Assembly (NCBI GenBank): GCA_023252195.1
Contig: JAHEXI010000002.1
Span: 310,001 to 374,000, forward strand
Origin: Pseudonocardiales bacterium
GTDB taxonomy: Bacteria > Actinomycetota > Actinomycetes > Mycobacteriales > Pseudonocardiaceae
Length of the DNA: 64,000 nt
Direction: 5' to 3'
Every line of letters begins with the position of its first letter. Positions within the stretch are counted from its first letter, which is position 1. Positions 3,201 through 46,277 of the stretch are shown piece after piece. The notes beneath the pieces are model-generated. The model was not told where the DNA came from, did no database searches, and saw only the letters and a program-made list of their open reading frames with translations. Both the position numbers and the translations under genes were made by a program.

Positions 3201-5153
3201 ATGAGTGCCGCCCGATATCCGTTCTCCGCGATCGTCGGGCACGACGATCTCCGGTTGGCGTTGCTGCTCAACGCTGTGCATCCAGGGATCGGTGGGGTGC
3301 TGGTCCGCGGCGAGAAGGGCACCGCGAAATCCACCGTGGTCCGGGCGCTTTCCGCGCTGCTACCCGCGGTGACCGCGGTACCAGGTTGCCGCTTCGGGTG
3401 TGACCCGACGGCCCCCGATTCCACCTGCCCGGACGGCCCGCACACCGCGGTAGCGGGACAGCTGATCCGGCCGGCCCGGTTGGTCGAGCTCCCGGTCGGC
3501 GCCACCGAGGACCGCCTGGTGGGCTCGCTGGATCTGCAGCGCGCGCTGACTGAGGGCGTCTCGGCGTACCAGCCCGGTCTGCTGGCCGCGGCCCACCGCG
3601 GGGTGCTCTACGTCGACGAGGTCAACCTGCTACCCGACCATCTCGTCGACGTGCTCCTCGACGCCGCCGCGATGGGTCGCGCGCACGTAGAACGCGACGG
3701 TGTGTCGGTCTCGCATGCCGCGTCGTTCCTGCTGGTCGGCACGATGAATCCAGAAGAGGGTGAACTACGCCCGCAGCTGCTGGATCGCTTCGGGCTCACC
3801 GTCGAGGTGGCGGCGTCCCGTGACGTCGACACGCGGGCCGAAGTGATCCGCCGGCGGCTGCGTTACGAGGCGGACCCAGCTGTTTTCGCAGCGGTGTGGC
3901 ATCCCGAGGATGCCGCACTCGCCAATCGGATCACGGTGGCCCGGGCGGCGTTGCCTGGTGTGGTGCTGCCTGATGGCGAACTGCGTCGGATCGCCGCGGT
4001 GTGCGCCGCGTTCGAGGTGGACGGGATGCGTGCCGATCTGGTGCTGGCCCGCACTGCCATGGCTCACGCCGCCTGGCGCGGCGCCGCCGCGGTGGGCGAG
4101 GAGGACATCCGGGTCGCGGCGATACTGGCGTTACCGCACCGCCGTCGCCGTGACCCCTTCGACCAGCCCGGCCTAGACAGCGAGCAGCTAGAGAACGCTC
4201 TGAGCACCCAAGACCAACCCCCGCCCGACCCCCCCGACCCTCCCACCAACGGCGGGTCCCCTCCCGACATGGGGACATATCGGGGTAATTCGGCACCCAA
4301 TAACCCCGATATGTCCCCATGTCGGGGCGATAGCCCGGCACCCGCACCGGGGGTGTTTCGGGCGCGGTTGTTGGCGGTGCCTGGGGTAGGGGCTGGGGTT
4401 CCTGGGCGGCGGTCGGCTGCTCGGACGAGTGTCGGGCGGATGATCCGTGCGTCCGTCTCCGCCGGCAGCGGGTTGCACCTGCTGGGCACGCTGGCCGCTG
4501 CCGCGCCGCACCAGCGCGACCGCGGGCGCAGCGGCCCTGGCCTGCTGGTGTTCCGGGCCGATATTCGGCGGGCGGTGCGGGTGGGGCAGGAGTCCAACCT
4601 GGTGCTGTTCGCCGTCGACGCGTCCGGCTCGATGGCGGCCCGCACCCGGATGTCCGCGGTGACCGGCGCGGTGCTGTCCCTGCTGCGCGACGCCTATCAG
4701 CGCCGCGACAAGGTAGGGCTGATCAGCTTCCGGGGCACCGAGGCGGAGCTGCTGCTACCACCGACGTCGGCGGTGGATGCCGCTGCTGCCCGGTTGACCG
4801 CGTTGCGCACTGGGGGGCGTACGCCGTTGGCCGCCGGGCTGGTGCGCTCGGCTCGGGTGCTGGCTGCCGAGCGGCTGCGCGATCCCGACCGGCGGGCGTT
4901 GCTCGTGGTGCTCACCGACGGCCGGGCGACGCACGGCGGGATGGACGCCGCGCTGGCCGCGGCCGCTCTACTGCGCCGCGACGGCGTCGCGTCGATTGTG
5001 GTGGACTGCGAGTCCGGGCCGGTCCGGTTGGGACTTCCCGACCGGCTCGCGGTCGCGCTAGGAGGTGGGTGCGTGCGGCTGGCGGAGCTGTCCGCCGACG
5101 CGGTGGCCGGAGTCGTTCGCGCTGCCAGATCTGCCGCTAGATCCGTTGCCTGA
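3201..5153 (+). CDS. Magnesium/cobalt chelatase-like AAA+ and VWA protein (ChlI-ChlD fusion)
   Basis: The 650-residue protein joins a ChlI-type AAA+ ATPase (about 1-330; Walker [10 protein letters not shown] at 37-45, Walker [10 protein letters not shown] near 136-144) to a ChlD-type von Willebrand A domain (about 460-650; MIDAS motif DASGSMA near 473). Proteins of this design power or assist CobN-type cobalt insertion. The linker (about 335-450) is rich in Pro and Gly and contains a 64-bp palindromic repeat translated in frame at about residues 355-376. The gene follows the GNAT gene by 2 bp and precedes cobO by 12 bp, which supports a role in cobalamin synthesis. Which metal it serves is inferred from context, not shown. 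Confidence 0.92.
4263..4326. repeat. 64-bp in-frame palindromic element, copy 1
   Basis: Two perfect 24-bp inverted arms (4263-4286 and 4303-4326) enclose a 16-bp loop. The left arm contains ACATGGGGACATATCGGGG. The element sits inside the chelatase linker and is translated as PDMGTYRG, a loop of about six residues, then PDMSPCRG. A second 64-bp copy lies at 28550-28613 with nearly identical arms, a different loop and the same reading frame. Because it is inside an uninterrupted gene it cannot be a terminator. A dispersed mobile palindrome tolerated in protein linkers fits best. Confidence 0.85.
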
Positions 5154-5165
5154 ACGGAGGTTCGC

Positions 5166-5780
5166 ATGCCCCAAGGTGTACCGGTCGCCGTCCCCGATGA
5201 CGGGCTGTCAACCCGACAGCGGCGTCATCGGCCGCTGCTGATCGTCCACACCGGAGCGATGAAGGGCAAGTCCACAGCCGCGTTCGGCTTGGCGTTGCGG
5301 GGTTGGAGCGCCGGCTGGTCCATCGGGGTGTTCCAGTTCGTCAAGTCCGCGAAGTGGAAAGTGGGGGAGCAGGCCGCGTTCCAGGCGCTGCATGACGTGC
5401 ACCAGCGGACCGGGCAAGGCGGGCCGGTCGAGTGGCACAAGATGGGCGAGGGCTGGTCCTGGGCGCGCAAGCAGGGCAGTGCCGAGGACCACGCCGCCGC
5501 CGCGGCGCAGGGGTGGACGGAGATCACCCGCCGGCTGGCCGAGCAGGTGCACGACCTGTATGTGCTCGACGAGTTCAGCTACCCGCTGCACTGGGGCTGG
5601 GTGGACACCGACGAGGTGGTGGCCACGCTGGCCGACCGACCCGGCCGGCAGCACGTCGTGATCACTGGCCGCAACGCCCCACCTGCGCTGCTTGACGCCG
5701 CTGATCTGGTGGTGGAGATGACGAAGATCAAGCACCCGATGGACGCGGGCCAGAAAGGCCAGCGCGGAATTGAGTGGTAA
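5166..5780 (+). CDS. cobO: Cob(I)yrinic acid a,c-diamide adenosyltransferase
   Basis: A 204-residue CobO/CobA-type ATP:corrinoid adenosyltransferase, which attaches the adenosyl group to cob(I)yrinic acid a,c-diamide. The P-loop-like TGAMKGKST lies at about 29-37. Family segments include GVFQFVKSAKWKVGE, WHKMGEGWSW, YVLDEFSYPLHWGW and VVEMTKIKHPMDAGQKGQRGIEW at the end. Length and motif order are normal for the family. ATG at 5166 follows an upstream AACGGAGG ribosome site. Its last codons overlap the longest cobB frame, and the stop lies 7 bp before the cobB palindrome. Confidence 0.96.
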   Translation: MPQGVPVAVPDDGLSTRQRRHRPLLIVHTGAMKGKSTAAFGLALRGWSAGWSIGVFQFVKSAKWKVGEQAAFQALHDVHQRTGQGGPVEWHKMGEGWSWARKQGSAEDHAAAAAQGWTEITRRLAEQVHDLYVLDEFSYPLHWGWVDTDEVVATLADRPGRQHVVITGRNAPPALLDAADLVVEMTKIKHPMDAGQKGQRGIEW

Positions 5781-7146
5781 ACCGCTCGTGAGTGGGAAAC
5801 AGTGTTATAACACTGTTTCCCACTCACGGCTGGTCGTCGCGGCGCCCGCATCGGGCGCTGGCAAGACCACGGTGGCCACCGGGTTGATGGCCGCGCTGTG
5901 GCGCCGGGGCACCACGATGGCTGGGTTCAAGGTCGGCCCGGACTACATCGACCCCGGCTACCACGCGCTGGCGACCGGGCGACCCGGCCGTAATCTCGAT
6001 CCGGTGCTGGTCGGTGAGCAGCGCATCGCGCCGCTGGCCGCCTACGGCGCTGCCGGAGCGCAGGTTGCGATCGTCGAGGGCGTGATGGGCCTGTTCGACG
6101 GCCGCACCGGGACTGCTGGCTACGGCTCGACGGCGCACGTCGCGGCCCTGCTGGGGGCCCCGGTGCTGCTGGTCGTCGACGTGCGCGGCCAGGGTCGCAG
6201 CCTCGCCGCGCTGCTGCACGGGTTCCGGTCCTTCGACGACAGCGTCCGGATCGCCGGGGTGGTACTCAACCGGGTCGGCTCGGCGGGCCATGAGCAGGTC
6301 TGCCGGCAGGCCTGCGTCGAGGTGGGTCTGCCGGTGCTCGGTGCGCTGCGCCGGGATGACGCGCTGGCGGTGCCGTCGCGGCACTTGGGTCTGGTCACTG
6401 CCGCCGAACACGCCACCGCGGCGGGCGTGGTGACCCGTTGGGCCGACGCGGTGGCCGCCCAAGTTGACCTGGACGCGGTGGTCTCGCTCGCCGCGCCGGC
6501 GCAGGCGGTCACGCGTTGGGAACCGGACGCTGAGGTTGTTGAGGTGACCGGGAAGCCGGTAGTCGCGGTGGCCGCAGGACCGGCGTTCACCTTCGGCTAT
6601 CCCGAGCACGCCGAACTGCTCGCCGCGGCCGGAGCCGAGGTCGTGGGCTTCGACCCGCTGCGTGATGAGTCGCTGCCGCCGGGTACCGCCGGTCTGGTGC
6701 TGCCCGGCGGATTCCCGGAGTGCCACACCGAGGCGCTGTCGGGCAACGTCGCACTGCGGGCGCAGATCGCCGCCCTGGCCCATCGCGGCGCCCCGGTGCA
6801 CGCCGAATGCGGTGGACTGATGTACCTGTGTCGCTCAGTCGACGGCGCACCGATGTGCGGCGTGCTCGACGCCGAGGCGGCGATGACCGGGCATCTCGTG
6901 CTGGGCTACCGCGACGCGGTGGCGTTGCGCGACTCGGTGCTGCACCCGGCTGGCGCACGGGTCAGCGGTCACGAGTTCCACCGCACCACCGTCACGCCCC
7001 GCGCGGGCGAGGCCGCCTGGGCGTGGACGGGCGCGCAGCCCGAGGGGTTCGTCCACGGCGGGGTACACGCATCGTTCCTGCATACCCACCCGGTCGCGCA
7101 TCCAGCAGCGGTGGCACGCTTTGTGGCGAGCTGTCTGAAGGGTTAG
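5770..7146 (+). CDS. cobB: Hydrogenobyrinic/cobyrinic acid a,c-diamide synthase
   Basis: The 458-residue glutamine-dependent amidotransferase amidates the a and c side chains of the corrin ring. It has an N-terminal ATPase domain (P-loop APASGAGKTT at about 25-34), DYIDPGYH and EGVMGLFDG, then a type I glutaminase domain with LPGGFPE and the nucleophile in HAECGGLMYL (Cys near 346). Possible starts are TTG 5770, overlapping cobO, or GTG 5788. Both lie before or at a perfect 42-bp palindrome (5787-5828), so VSGKQCYNTVSHSR is translated either way; no ATG, GTG or TTG lies between the palindrome and the P-loop. The extra N-terminal peptide looks like an insertion and should not touch the catalytic core. 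Confidence 0.95.
   Translation: MSGKPLVSGKQCYNTVSHSRLVVAAPASGAGKTTVATGLMAALWRRGTTMAGFKVGPDYIDPGYHALATGRPGRNLDPVLVGEQRIAPLAAYGAAGAQVAIVEGVMGLFDGRTGTAGYGSTAHVAALLGAPVLLVVDVRGQGRSLAALLHGFRSFDDSVRIAGVVLNRVGSAGHEQVCRQACVEVGLPVLGALRRDDALAVPSRHLGLVTAAEHATAAGVVTRWADAVAAQVDLDAVVSLAAPAQAVTRWEPDAEVVEVTGKPVVAVAAGPAFTFGYPEHAELLAAAGAEVVGFDPLRDESLPPGTAGLVLPGGFPECHTEALSGNVALRAQIAALAHRGAPVHAECGGLMYLCRSVDGAPMCGVLDAEAAMTGHLVLGYRDAVALRDSVLHPAGARVSGHEFHRTTVTPRAGEAAWAWTGAQPEGFVHGGVHASFLHTHPVAHPAAVARFVASCLKG
5787..5828. repeat. Perfect 42-bp palindrome at the start of cobB
   Basis: The two halves meet without a loop at a central TTATAA. The left half reads GTGAGTGGGAAACAGTGTTA after a leading C, and the right half is its exact reverse complement. 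It contains no in-frame stop and is translated as the first residues of CobB. A related direct half-site, TGAGTGGTAAAC at 5771-5782, overlaps the cobO stop and matches TGAGTGGGAAAC inside the palindrome at 11 of 12 positions. It could be a mobile palindrome or a regulator site; no second copy was found in this window. Confidence 0.85.
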
Positions 7147-13322: not shown

Positions 13323-13409
13323 GTGAGAAGCACCCAGGCGGACGATGCTCCAGCAGAAGCGCTCCCCGGTGGTCACCCACCCACGCCAGTCACGTATCGC
13401 GACCCTACC
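13323..13409 (-). promoter_or_regulatory. ZTP (pfl) riboswitch upstream of folD
   Basis: Read on the minus strand, the leader contains, in order, GGGTCGCGATACGTGACTGG, then GCG, ACCACCGGGGAGCG, a variable hairpin, and CGTCCGCCTGGGTGC. These match the conserved blocks of the pfl/ZTP aptamer (GGGUCGnGACUGGCG, ACCGGGGAGCG and CCGCCUGGGC). ZTP riboswitches sense ZMP/ZTP, which build up when 10-formyl-tetrahydrofolate is short, and commonly precede folD, as here: the aptamer ends about 20 bp before ATG 13301. A covariance-model search would confirm it. Confidence 0.82.
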
Positions 13410-28109: not shown

Positions 28110-28628
28110 TCAGGGTGCGCCGGGAAACGGCACCGTCAGCGGGGTAGCACCCACGGTTGCCCGCCACCGGGTCGCCCGTACGGCCGCGTCGGTCAGTGCC
28201 TCCAGCGCGGTCCCGCGCAGATCCGCATCAGCCGGACTGCGCTCGACCACCGAGCGCCACGCCGCGGCTGCGTCGGTCTCCGCGGTGATCGCCAGCCGCA
28301 GCGCGGAGGCGGCATCGGTGACCGGTTCTGGCGTCAGGTAGCCCGGTTCAGGTGGCACTGGTGCAGCACCCGCGTCGATCAGGATGCGCTGCGTGGCGTC
28401 CCGCCGAGCCTGATGAGCGGTAGCGGCCTCGTCAAGCCGGCGGCTCAACGCATCCGGCACAAACGCCCCCACCACCCCGTAAACCCACACCGCAGCATGC
28501 TCAGCCCCCAAAGCCCCCTGCAACGCCCCCACCGGCACCTGGGATCGGACCCGATATGGGGACATATCGGGCCTAAAAGGTGTCTCTTTACCCCGATATG
28601 TCCCCATGTCGGGGGGCGGGCGTTTCAT
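28110..28628 (-). CDS. DUF4439 ferritin-like protein, N-terminus carrying a palindromic insert
   Basis: The 172-residue frame contains a four-helix ferritin-like DUF4439 domain (about 36-165; LQGALGAEHAAVWVYGVVGA, ALSRRLDEAATAHQARRD, ALRLAITAETDAAAAWRSVV). Residues 5-27 (PPDMGTYRG and PDMSPYR) come from a 64-bp palindromic element. ATG 28628 is favoured because it overlaps the upstream lipoprotein stop as ATGA, indicating coupling. If GTG 28538 were used instead, the element would be untranslated leader. Function is unknown; the pair with the adjacent lipoprotein is conserved upstream of rimP in related genomes. Confidence 0.8.
   Translation of the reverse strand: MKRPPPDMGTYRGKETPFRPDMSPYRVRSQVPVGALQGALGAEHAAVWVYGVVGAFVPDALSRRLDEAATAHQARRDATQRILIDAGAAPVPPEPGYLTPEPVTDAASALRLAITAETDAAAAWRSVVERSPADADLRGTALEALTDAAVRATRWRATVGATPLTVPFPGAP
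28550..28613. repeat. 64-bp palindromic element, copy 2
   Basis: Two 22-bp inverted arms (28550-28571 and 28592-28613) with one mismatch enclose a 20-bp loop. The total length, 64 bp, equals that of copy 1 at 4263-4326. Read along the host gene (minus strand) the leading arm is identical to copy 1 for about 26 bases, including GACATGGGGACATATCGGGG, and the reading frame is the same. Only the loop differs. This supports one dispersed family and not two chance hairpins. Confidence 0.85.
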
Positions 28629-34355: not shown

Positions 34356-34357
34356 TC

Positions 34358-34402
34358 GTTGCTGGGGTTGGTGGCCCGCCAAGGACCACCAACCCCAGCA
34401 AC
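34358..34402 (+). terminator. Perfect 17-bp stem hairpin after infB
   Basis: Arms 34358-34374 (GTTGCTGGGGTTGGTGG) and 34386-34402 form a perfect stem with an 11-base loop, starting 2 bp after the infB stop. There is no U-tract, as is common for high-GC hairpin terminators. A partial third copy of the arm sequence (GGACCACCAACCC) at 34414-34426 can pair with alternative partners. It could end most infB transcripts or protect the 3' end. Confidence 0.55.
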
Positions 34403-34469
34403 GGTGATCTTCCAGGACCACCAACCCTGGGCGCGGTGGTCTTCACCAGCTACCAACCGGTGGTGAACG

Positions 34470-40472: not shown

Positions 40473-40690
40473 CCCTCAGCTAGCTGACCTGGGCCAGTAC
40501 GAAGTACACAACCACACATCGCGCACGAGCCGCCTCGTCACCGTCGTCGGGACCGTCGTCCGCCGGTCCTCGGTAGTGGCTCCCGGGAGTACGTCACATG
40601 CTCCGGGGGCTTCGATCGAAGACCGGTCCGCCGTCCTCGTTCCCGCGCCGATGGTTTCACCAGCGGTTCGTGTCGCGAGGAGGAGAAGAA
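40473..40690 (+). other. rpsO-pnp intergenic leader
   Basis: About 218 bases separate rpsO from the pnp start. A 12-bp palindrome TCAGCTAGCTGA (40476-40487) follows the rpsO stop at once. The rest is GC-rich with short inverted matches (CCGGTCC and GGACCGT types) that could fold. The end is a strong AGGAGAAG ribosome site. Polynucleotide phosphorylase leaders are often processed and autoregulated; no specific structure was proven here. Confidence 0.35.
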
Positions 40691-45114: not shown

Positions 45115-45219
45115 CGCCATTCGGATCCGAATCGCGGTTCCCGCTCGCGTGGAAAGCGCCATTAGGAGCCGAATTGCGACGCTGGCCGCTTGTGGACCGC
45201 TATTCGGAGCCGAATAGCG
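45115..45219. repeat. Three 22-bp palindromes, left flank of the DUF559 gene
   Basis: Copies at 45115-45136, 45157-45178 and 45198-45219 share the core ATTCGGAGCCGAAT with variants (ATTCGGATCCGAAT, ATTAGGAGCCGAAT) inside CGC-N-core-N-GCG. The third has perfect 10-bp arms and ends 1 bp from the DUF559 stop codon. Starts are 42 and 41 bp apart, leaving 19-20 bp between units. Two more copies lie on the other side of the gene. Confidence 0.85.
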
Positions 45220-46172: not shown

Positions 46173-46189
46173 GCACGGTCGGGCCACTC

Positions 46190-46253
46190 CGTCATTCGGC
46201 TCCGAATGGCGACGGCCGGGGTGCTGTCGATCGCTATTCGGCTCCGAATGGCG
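46190..46253. repeat. Two 22-bp palindromes, right flank of the DUF559 gene
   Basis: Copies at 46190-46211 and 46232-46253 share the core ATTCGGCTCCGAAT and start 42 bp apart, the same period as the three copies at 45115-45219. Together the five units bracket the DUF559 gene on both sides. Confidence 0.85.
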
Positions 46254-46277
46254 GTCGGTGGAGCGGGCGGGAGCGAG

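Follow-up and report, generated by a model that had tools for sequence, protein, structure and literature searches.

The 64-bp palindrome that is translated inside a chelatase-like gene of a Pseudonocardiales bacterium is one copy of a dispersed, hairpin-forming repeat (family A), which shares a symmetric head with a second set of repeats (family B) whose stems are for the most part unrelated. We conclude that these elements are probably non-autonomous, REPIN-like mobile palindromes without the GTAG and CGTC tags. Outside a single actinobacterial genus, which is represented here mainly by metagenomes, family A and the exact head are almost never found. Note that the window referred to below is the whole stretch of 64,000 nucleotides that was analysed; its genome (G000) is a 4.74-Mb draft of 48 contigs, 97.8% complete, from a genus of the Pseudonocardiales, and the 11 genomes of this genus are all drafts (87-98% complete, 48 to 610 contigs).

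Copy 1 occupies window positions 4263-4326 and consists of a left arm (4263-4285), an 18-nt spacer (4286-4303) and a right arm (4304-4326), with 24 of 24 outer positions complementary, that is, perfect 24-bp arms; the head (GGGG-TAAT..AATAA-CCCC) spans 4282-4307. The host gene (3201-5153, plus strand) is an ORF of 650 aa with the Pfam domains AAA, AAA lid and VWA of a chelatase-like protein. Residues 355-376 are the element read in frame, and they lie between AAA_lid_2 (to residue 331) and VWA (from residue 468). The original prediction of a 64-bp palindrome in frame within an AAA+/VWA gene was therefore right in coordinates, arms and frame. Palindromes as strong as this one occur four times in the window, compared with none in three first-order Markov shuffles of it. 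No blastn match to copy 1 was found in plasmid or phage records, and a phage or plasmid origin was rejected on this ground. At the Rfam gathering score the window gave two matches, a ZMP/ZTP riboswitch (13325-13403, minus strand) and an Actino-pnp RNA (40562-40627, plus strand), neither of them at the elements.

A search of the full genome, proposed earlier as a check, established that the palindrome is multi-copy and dispersed. With a 22-nt arm pattern and up to three mismatches, 31 matches (15 + 16) were found in G000, making up 15 pairs and one single arm, whereas the reversed pattern used as a control gave none; a BLAST search with the element gave 30 matches, spread over 16 places and including one of just 28 bp. 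The resulting count of 15 full copies led us to reject a single coding element at one locus. Family A elements are about 64 bp long, with two inverted arms of 23-24 bp and a spacer that is usually 18 nt. The left outer end reads CCCG in 13 of the 15 copies and TCCG or CCTG in the others. A covariance model built from copy 1 and the other 14 scored copy 1 at 88.6 bits.

The original prediction had also placed a second 64-bp element with nearly the same arms and the same reading frame in a different gene, and this was borne out at window positions 28550-28613 (copy 2), which were identified by the arm pattern and the covariance model. Here the loop is 20 nt long and 21 of 22 arm positions pair (with 22-nt arms, the score is 19). 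The host gene (28110-28628, minus strand) encodes a DUF4439 (ferritin-like) protein, as judged by Pfam on 28110-28538 and by orthologues, and copy 2 codes for its N-terminal part in the same PDMxTYRG frame that is used in the chelatase. The start ATG overlaps the stop of an upstream minus-strand frame (ATGA). An in-frame ATGA lies upstream of the copy 2 site in all ten DUF4439 orthologues (GTGA in G001; the TGA was read as the end of the upstream gene in G000 only), and all five element-bearing orthologues have an open frame. Because the start is set by these orthologues, we count copy 2 as intragenic. The N-terminus ahead of the conserved VPV..Q is 5 aa long in the element-free G010 and G004, 12 aa in G006, 14 aa in G001 and 16 aa, with a remnant of the element, in G008; in the five element-bearing species it measures 30, 30, 34, 40 and 40 aa in the same open frame.

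Orthologues of the chelatase were found in 49 of 61 genomes, including 10 of the 11 of the genus, and the linker was compared in an alignment of 23 rows that was scored by eye (13 rows from outside the genus). The element is intact in G000, G005, G007 and G008 and decayed in G009; it is absent by eye from G001, G003, G006 and G010 and from all 13 outside rows. The peptide is thus missing in four of the nine scorable orthologues of the genus (the G002 row was not scorable). Among orthologues that have the copy, arm identity stays at 0.91-0.98. Alignment of orthologues had been suggested as the means of telling an insertion from an ancestral linker, and its outcome is mixed: the peptide is absent from four genus rows and from every outside row, but it is common to four species and degraded in a fifth. 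We rejected an ancestral linker peptide as the full account of copy 1 on the basis of the four genus genomes and 13 outgroup rows that are without it, although the sharing within the genus is real.

At least five genes of the genus carry a family A element within the coding sequence, namely those for the chelatase (linker), the DUF4439 protein (N-terminus), SelB, FdhD and a DUF5134 protein. The PDMxTYRG frame is used in the chelatase, in the DUF4439 protein and in FdhD, where the element of G005 sits in a variable stretch. In SelB the element lies between domains in G000, G008, G009 and G002 and is read in the RHGDISG frame, which is open in all four element-bearing orthologues; the corresponding stretch is shorter in the element-free orthologues of G001 (21 aa) and G006 (19 aa). 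In the DUF5134 protein of G007, where the element is at the N-terminus, the left arm is read as RHGDLSG and the right arm as PDKSPCR. A single fixed coding frame as a trait of the element therefore does not hold. Separately, a further A copy at L148 in G009 was called intragenic by the gene finder. At the L013 site of both G000 and G001, an arm supplies the ATG that heads the adjacent reading frame, which we take to be rsmA/ksgA.

Most copies are found elsewhere. A gene finder built for this work from codon usage puts the coding share of the window at 86%, and only three of the 15 A copies of G000 are intragenic (P = 1.7e-8 for so few at this coding density). The other 12 lie outside genes or at gene ends, and nine of these hold a gene 3' end or lie within 30 bp of one. 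For 14 A and 21 B copies of G000 the gene finder gave a location, which was intragenic in six of the 35 (two A, four B) and intergenic in 29. (Note that the 29 include the DUF4439 copy, since placed as intragenic; the A copy left out of the 14, G000:C41:117256, is near a locus end and is intergenic, with its neighbours 394 and 256 bp away.) A gene 3' end is inside the element or no more than 30 bp away in 24 of the 29, and in nine of them the gene end reaches into the element; the spacer can supply the TAA or TAG that ends the host gene, seen as negative 3' gaps. Of the 29 intergenic copies, 11 lie at convergent junctions, a larger share than the nine among 62 junctions between genes in the window (Fisher P = 0.014); this excess is not significant for family A alone (4 of 12, P = 0.13). 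The idea of a protein-coding mobile palindrome that settles in linkers is in part upheld, in that the element is dispersed and some copies are in frame in variable parts of genes, and in part not borne out, 12 of 15 copies being outside genes or at their ends.

The hairpins formed by family A elements are strong. In the long hairpin, 95.3% of cells are paired over the 15 copies, compared with 92.8% in shuffles. Four pairs show double changes, the covariation score is 0.123 compared with 0.073 in shuffles (reached in 0 of 500), and four of five measures beat nearly all shuffles; further pair types did not exceed shuffles (138 of 500). Moreover, the two arms of one copy resemble each other more than permuted arms do, with 20.34 of 23 positions identical over 88 A copies (permuted, 18.89, sd 0.09) and 21.63 of 24 over 70 B copies (permuted, 20.99, sd 0.084). 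(This comparison used 2000 permutations per family and ignored relatedness, and orthologous copies among the 88 and 70 inflate the excess.) Each A arm is itself a hairpin with a 9-bp stem and a 4-nt loop (the CCCGAC form has one mismatch), so that the DNA of the element can fold as one long hairpin or as two short ones.

Family B was traced from one weak match (L016). Its arms (CCGCATTCAGCGGGCTCAGCGGGG) are unrelated to the A arms over most of their length, and with up to three mismatches they gave 32 matches in G000, with none for the control. Over the loci examined we gathered 93 A copies and 77 B copies, counting orthologues (outside G000 the sampling was not exhaustive), and 67 and 58 of these, respectively, have an 18-nt spacer. 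The two families share a symmetric head, with the consensus GGGG-YTAT-N10-ATAR-CCCC; the Y after GGGG is followed mostly by TAT or by AA-type letters, and this is mirrored before CCCC. The pattern used for the head, CGGGGYWA-N12-TWRCCCCG, was matched 96 times in eight of the 11 genus genomes (G000 included), compared with a single match among the family's 189 other genomes, whereas the reversed pattern has none in the genus and 15 elsewhere in the family. (The head pattern is absent from G002, G004 and G009, of which G002 and G009 do carry A-type matches.) Some spacers are shared as well: six pairs of A and B spacers are identical at 16 or more of 18 positions, whereas 60 simulations gave 0.27 such pairs on average and never more than 2; the six are not independent. 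In one pair, the A copy in the chelatase gene of G008 and the B copy at G000:C5:46582, the match is 18 of 18 (inverted). At two sites, moreover, some species have an A element where others have a B element. At L010 there is an A element in G000, G005 and G007, a B element in G008 and a B-like one in G010, with none in G001, G006 and G004; at L291, G005 has an A element and G001 a B element, G000 has a decayed B arm together with another palindrome, and G006 has none.

Within the genus, matches to the covariance model of the 15 copies were found in 10 of the 11 genomes at E ≤ 0.001 (the weaker ones include family B), and the B arm pattern with up to two mismatches was found in 10 of the 11. Among 50 other genomes searched with the B pattern, two had matches, G026 (nine arms) and G126 (one arm). 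The sole G026 locus that was examined (L251:1478; another genus) is a palindrome with B-like arms and a spacer without the shared head, which argues that stems and head are not always linked. When the covariance model was used with stricter filters and E ≤ 1e-7 on 70 genomes of the family, matches were in the three genus members drawn and in G076, of another genus; the latter (L418:1501-1563; 3e-8 by the A model) is a 63-nt palindrome with unrelated stems and a spacer that starts with CTAT. Of 200 relatives, seven have the exact double-arm pattern, and six of the seven belong to the genus. In a collection of 84,980 species the pattern matched 18 stretches, 17 of which are in five metagenome assemblies named as Pseudonocardiales, Pseudonocardiaceae or Actinobacteria bacterium, the same as our G002, G005, G007, G008 and G009. 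Double-arm matches in G144 and in a Rikenellaceae metagenome assembly were rejected as family A because their outer stems differ, the second being another palindrome; likewise rejected were seven double-arm and two B-type pattern matches in viral contigs, where the surrounding letters are those of other palindromes. Within the genus, G004 (only 87% complete) has no elements by covariance model, B-arm search or head search. At one site the aligned sequences of G004 (L186) and G003 (L187) are identical, and these two bins may therefore be mixed.

Elements are passed down at orthologous sites, where a sister species may have only a remnant or nothing. The L015 site, for example, has an element in five species and none in G008 and G003, the L013 element is shortened in G006, and the FdhD element is down to a few codons in G008; the differences at L013 in G006 and at L005 and L052 in G008 resemble loss with remnants. 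Over 56 orthologous pairs, identity is 0.846 in arms, 0.801 in spacers and 0.859 and 0.839 in the two flanks, and the arms exceed the flanks in only 24 of the 56. The arms being no more conserved than the flanks, most copies decay like their surroundings. At three orthologous sites (L001, G000 versus G007; L006 and L009, G000 versus G008) position 11 has changed in both arms together, a pattern that either selection for pairing or hairpin-templated correction would produce. At L183 in G007, an orthologue of the L006 site, the 4-nt loop of one arm is inverted relative to the orthologues, and the arms no longer pair through the loop. By eye, the site alignments showed neither a consistent target-site duplication nor a clean recent insertion; most of the comparisons are old or loss-like, and movement itself was not observed.

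Other palindromes are present in the same DNA. The window has a strong one (CGTGAGTGGGAAACAGTGT-tata-ACACTGTTTCCCACTCACG) at 5787-5828, between a gene ending at 5780 and the next gene, with a related one at L266:1013, and another (CGTTGCTGGGGTTGGTGGCCC-gccaa-GGACC..) at 34357-34403, two bases after a called gene end (34355), which is perhaps a terminator. Two weaker palindromes (45115-45178 and 46189-46254) belong to a further family with an arm like CGCCATTCGGAGCCGAATNGCGG that is also seen at L284:896 and L293:576. Dispersed families were noted with arms like CGTGAACTCGACNGNACCGACGTT (L012:474, L078:865, L142:725, L272:1402, L328:1069) and ACCCGTGAGTGGCGATGCGAGT (L106:843, L107:834, L107:4880, L147:856, L228:278). 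An additional family has an arm like CGCGTTCTGGATGCAGACTGCGG (L268:1375, L327:1666, L325:1218), and L325 is a hybrid with the outer stem of this family and the inner stem of family A.

REPINs are REP doublets that form hairpins, in Pseudomonas and others, and are linked to RAYTs, which are Y1 HUH transposases (PMC3116915). The elements described here resemble REPINs (PMC3116915) in having two conserved inverted ends that enclose a spacer of nearly constant length but lower conservation, in forming one long hairpin with compensatory changes, and in being mainly extragenic with several groups per genome; unlike REPINs, they have no GTAG-type tag, no Y1/RAYT gene in the 11 drafts, an actinobacterial host and unrelated stems with one head. 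For REPs of the GTAG and CGTC types, the main locations are next to 3' ends and in the gaps of convergent or unidirectional gene pairs, and such REPs may supply stop codons or be intragenic (PMC3733652); elements of families A and B likewise favour 3' ends and gaps of these kinds, supply stop codons and are in some cases intragenic. The A arm, with its 9-bp stem and 4-nt loop, is within the range of CGTC REPs (8-9 bp, 4-5 nt; PMC3733652); the B arm folds over 4 bp only. Unlike both types, A and B elements carry neither tag: at the 250 ends of 18-nt spacers (134 A, 116 B) GTAG occurs seven times (five A, two B), and CGTC, TGTC and CCTC do not occur; the commonest ends are ATAG in family A (35) and ATAA in family B (34). 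CGTC REPs are described as having no known dedicated transposase, and the word Actinobacteria is absent from the main text of that paper (PMC3733652).

For insertions within genes, the closest system is that of the Rickettsia palindromic elements, or RPEs (PMC10969869). As with RPEs, a palindrome is found in frame in unrelated genes and is apparently tolerated in loops and tails, here in a minority of copies; unlike RPEs, which are about 150 bp long (PMC10969869), the present elements are 64 bp, lie mostly outside genes and have no single frame or peptide, and it is by these features rather than by sequence that we set them apart. In the papers considered here, work on REPs, REPINs and RPEs deals mostly with Proteobacteria and, in the case of REPINs, with RAYT transposases (PMC3116915, PMC3733652, PMC10969869). 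Among the matches listed in a search of the open-licence literature, no description of such a palindrome in actinobacteria or in Pseudonocardia or Pseudonocardiaceae, or as an actinobacterial coding palindrome, was found, which is weak evidence of novelty.

Would a function at the chromosomal site account for these elements? In such a case the head would be a dimer-binding site (for a nucleoid protein, gyrase or a regulator), or the hairpin a bidirectional terminator or stabiliser of RNA 3' ends, duplicated and kept by selection. The location of copies at gene 3' ends, the convergent excess of A and B copies together (11/29 versus 9/62, P = 0.014, with P = 0.13 for A alone), the usual 18-nt spacing, the symmetric head and the strength of the hairpins are all in keeping with this. 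However, the arms of orthologous copies change at the pace of their flanks, sister species have no copy at many of the sites, model, B-arm and head searches gave no element in G004 (at 87% completeness), and by eye the 15 copies of G000 have no T-run on either flank of the hairpin; we regard a functional site as unlikely. A coding element like the RPEs, with in-frame insertion into proteins as its main niche, is a poorer candidate still and we give it little credence. The intragenic hosts (at least five for family A), the frames open in 5/5 DUF4439 and 4/4 SelB element-bearing orthologues and the consensus arms free of stops in all frames speak for it, but it is weakened by the location counts (12 of 15 G000 copies outside genes or at their ends), by the use of more than one reading frame and by the spacer stop codons that end host genes.

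The small size and palindromic ends would also suit a MITE derived from a classical DDE insertion sequence, the arms being its terminal inverted repeats and the parent being missing from the drafts. IS copies are often lost from draft assemblies, and the genomes here are drafts of 48 to 610 contigs. Against this, 30 of the 31 arm matches in G000 are paired at 64 bp, which means that no arms flank a gene-sized insert there, the site alignments, for the most part old or loss-like comparisons, have no consistent target duplication by eye, and blastn with copy 1 matched nothing among plasmid or phage records; a parent IS with the same ends was not found in the G000 draft. We therefore consider such an origin improbable. 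The Y1 domain of RAYT-type transposases (PF01797) was detected in none of the 11 genus drafts and in five of 14 control genomes. From this result and the lack of a plasmid or phage match we infer a putative trans-acting enzyme that would recognise the head shared by the two families.

We return to the REPIN-like mobile palindrome, for which the following course of events may be envisaged. Single-stranded DNA of the element would fold into one long hairpin, and a trans-acting enzyme would recognise the tip of that hairpin, where the consensus shared by both families lies, and copy or move the element. If the shared head at the tip is what is recognised, different stems could be served by the same machinery. 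Harmless insertions would survive, typically behind stop codons, where the spacer may give TAA or TAG, and less often in protein linkers or tails, where they could be tolerated since none of the frames of the consensus A arms contains a stop. The likeness of the two arms may be maintained by selection for pairing or by repair templated on the hairpin, given that some orthologous copies have changed identically in both.

A bolder form of this idea, which we hold only tentatively, is that the hairpin is modular and indifferent to its stems: a non-Y1 enzyme might read only the tip and the 18-nt spacing, unrelated stems (A, B and perhaps further ones in these genomes) would be exchangeable around the one head, and templated copying would keep the arms alike. 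If this is so, insertions within genes would add short palindrome-coded peptides to conserved proteins. The elements form a set of genus-specific actinobacterial hairpin repeats, with no Y1 transposase detected, in which two families of stems have one head and some spacers in common. The chelatase, SelB, FdhD and DUF4439 genes offer natural comparisons, inside conserved proteins, of forms with and without the element. Two questions thereby become testable: what moves REP-like repeats where there is no RAYT, and how often linkers and tails of proteins are made from palindromes outside Rickettsia.
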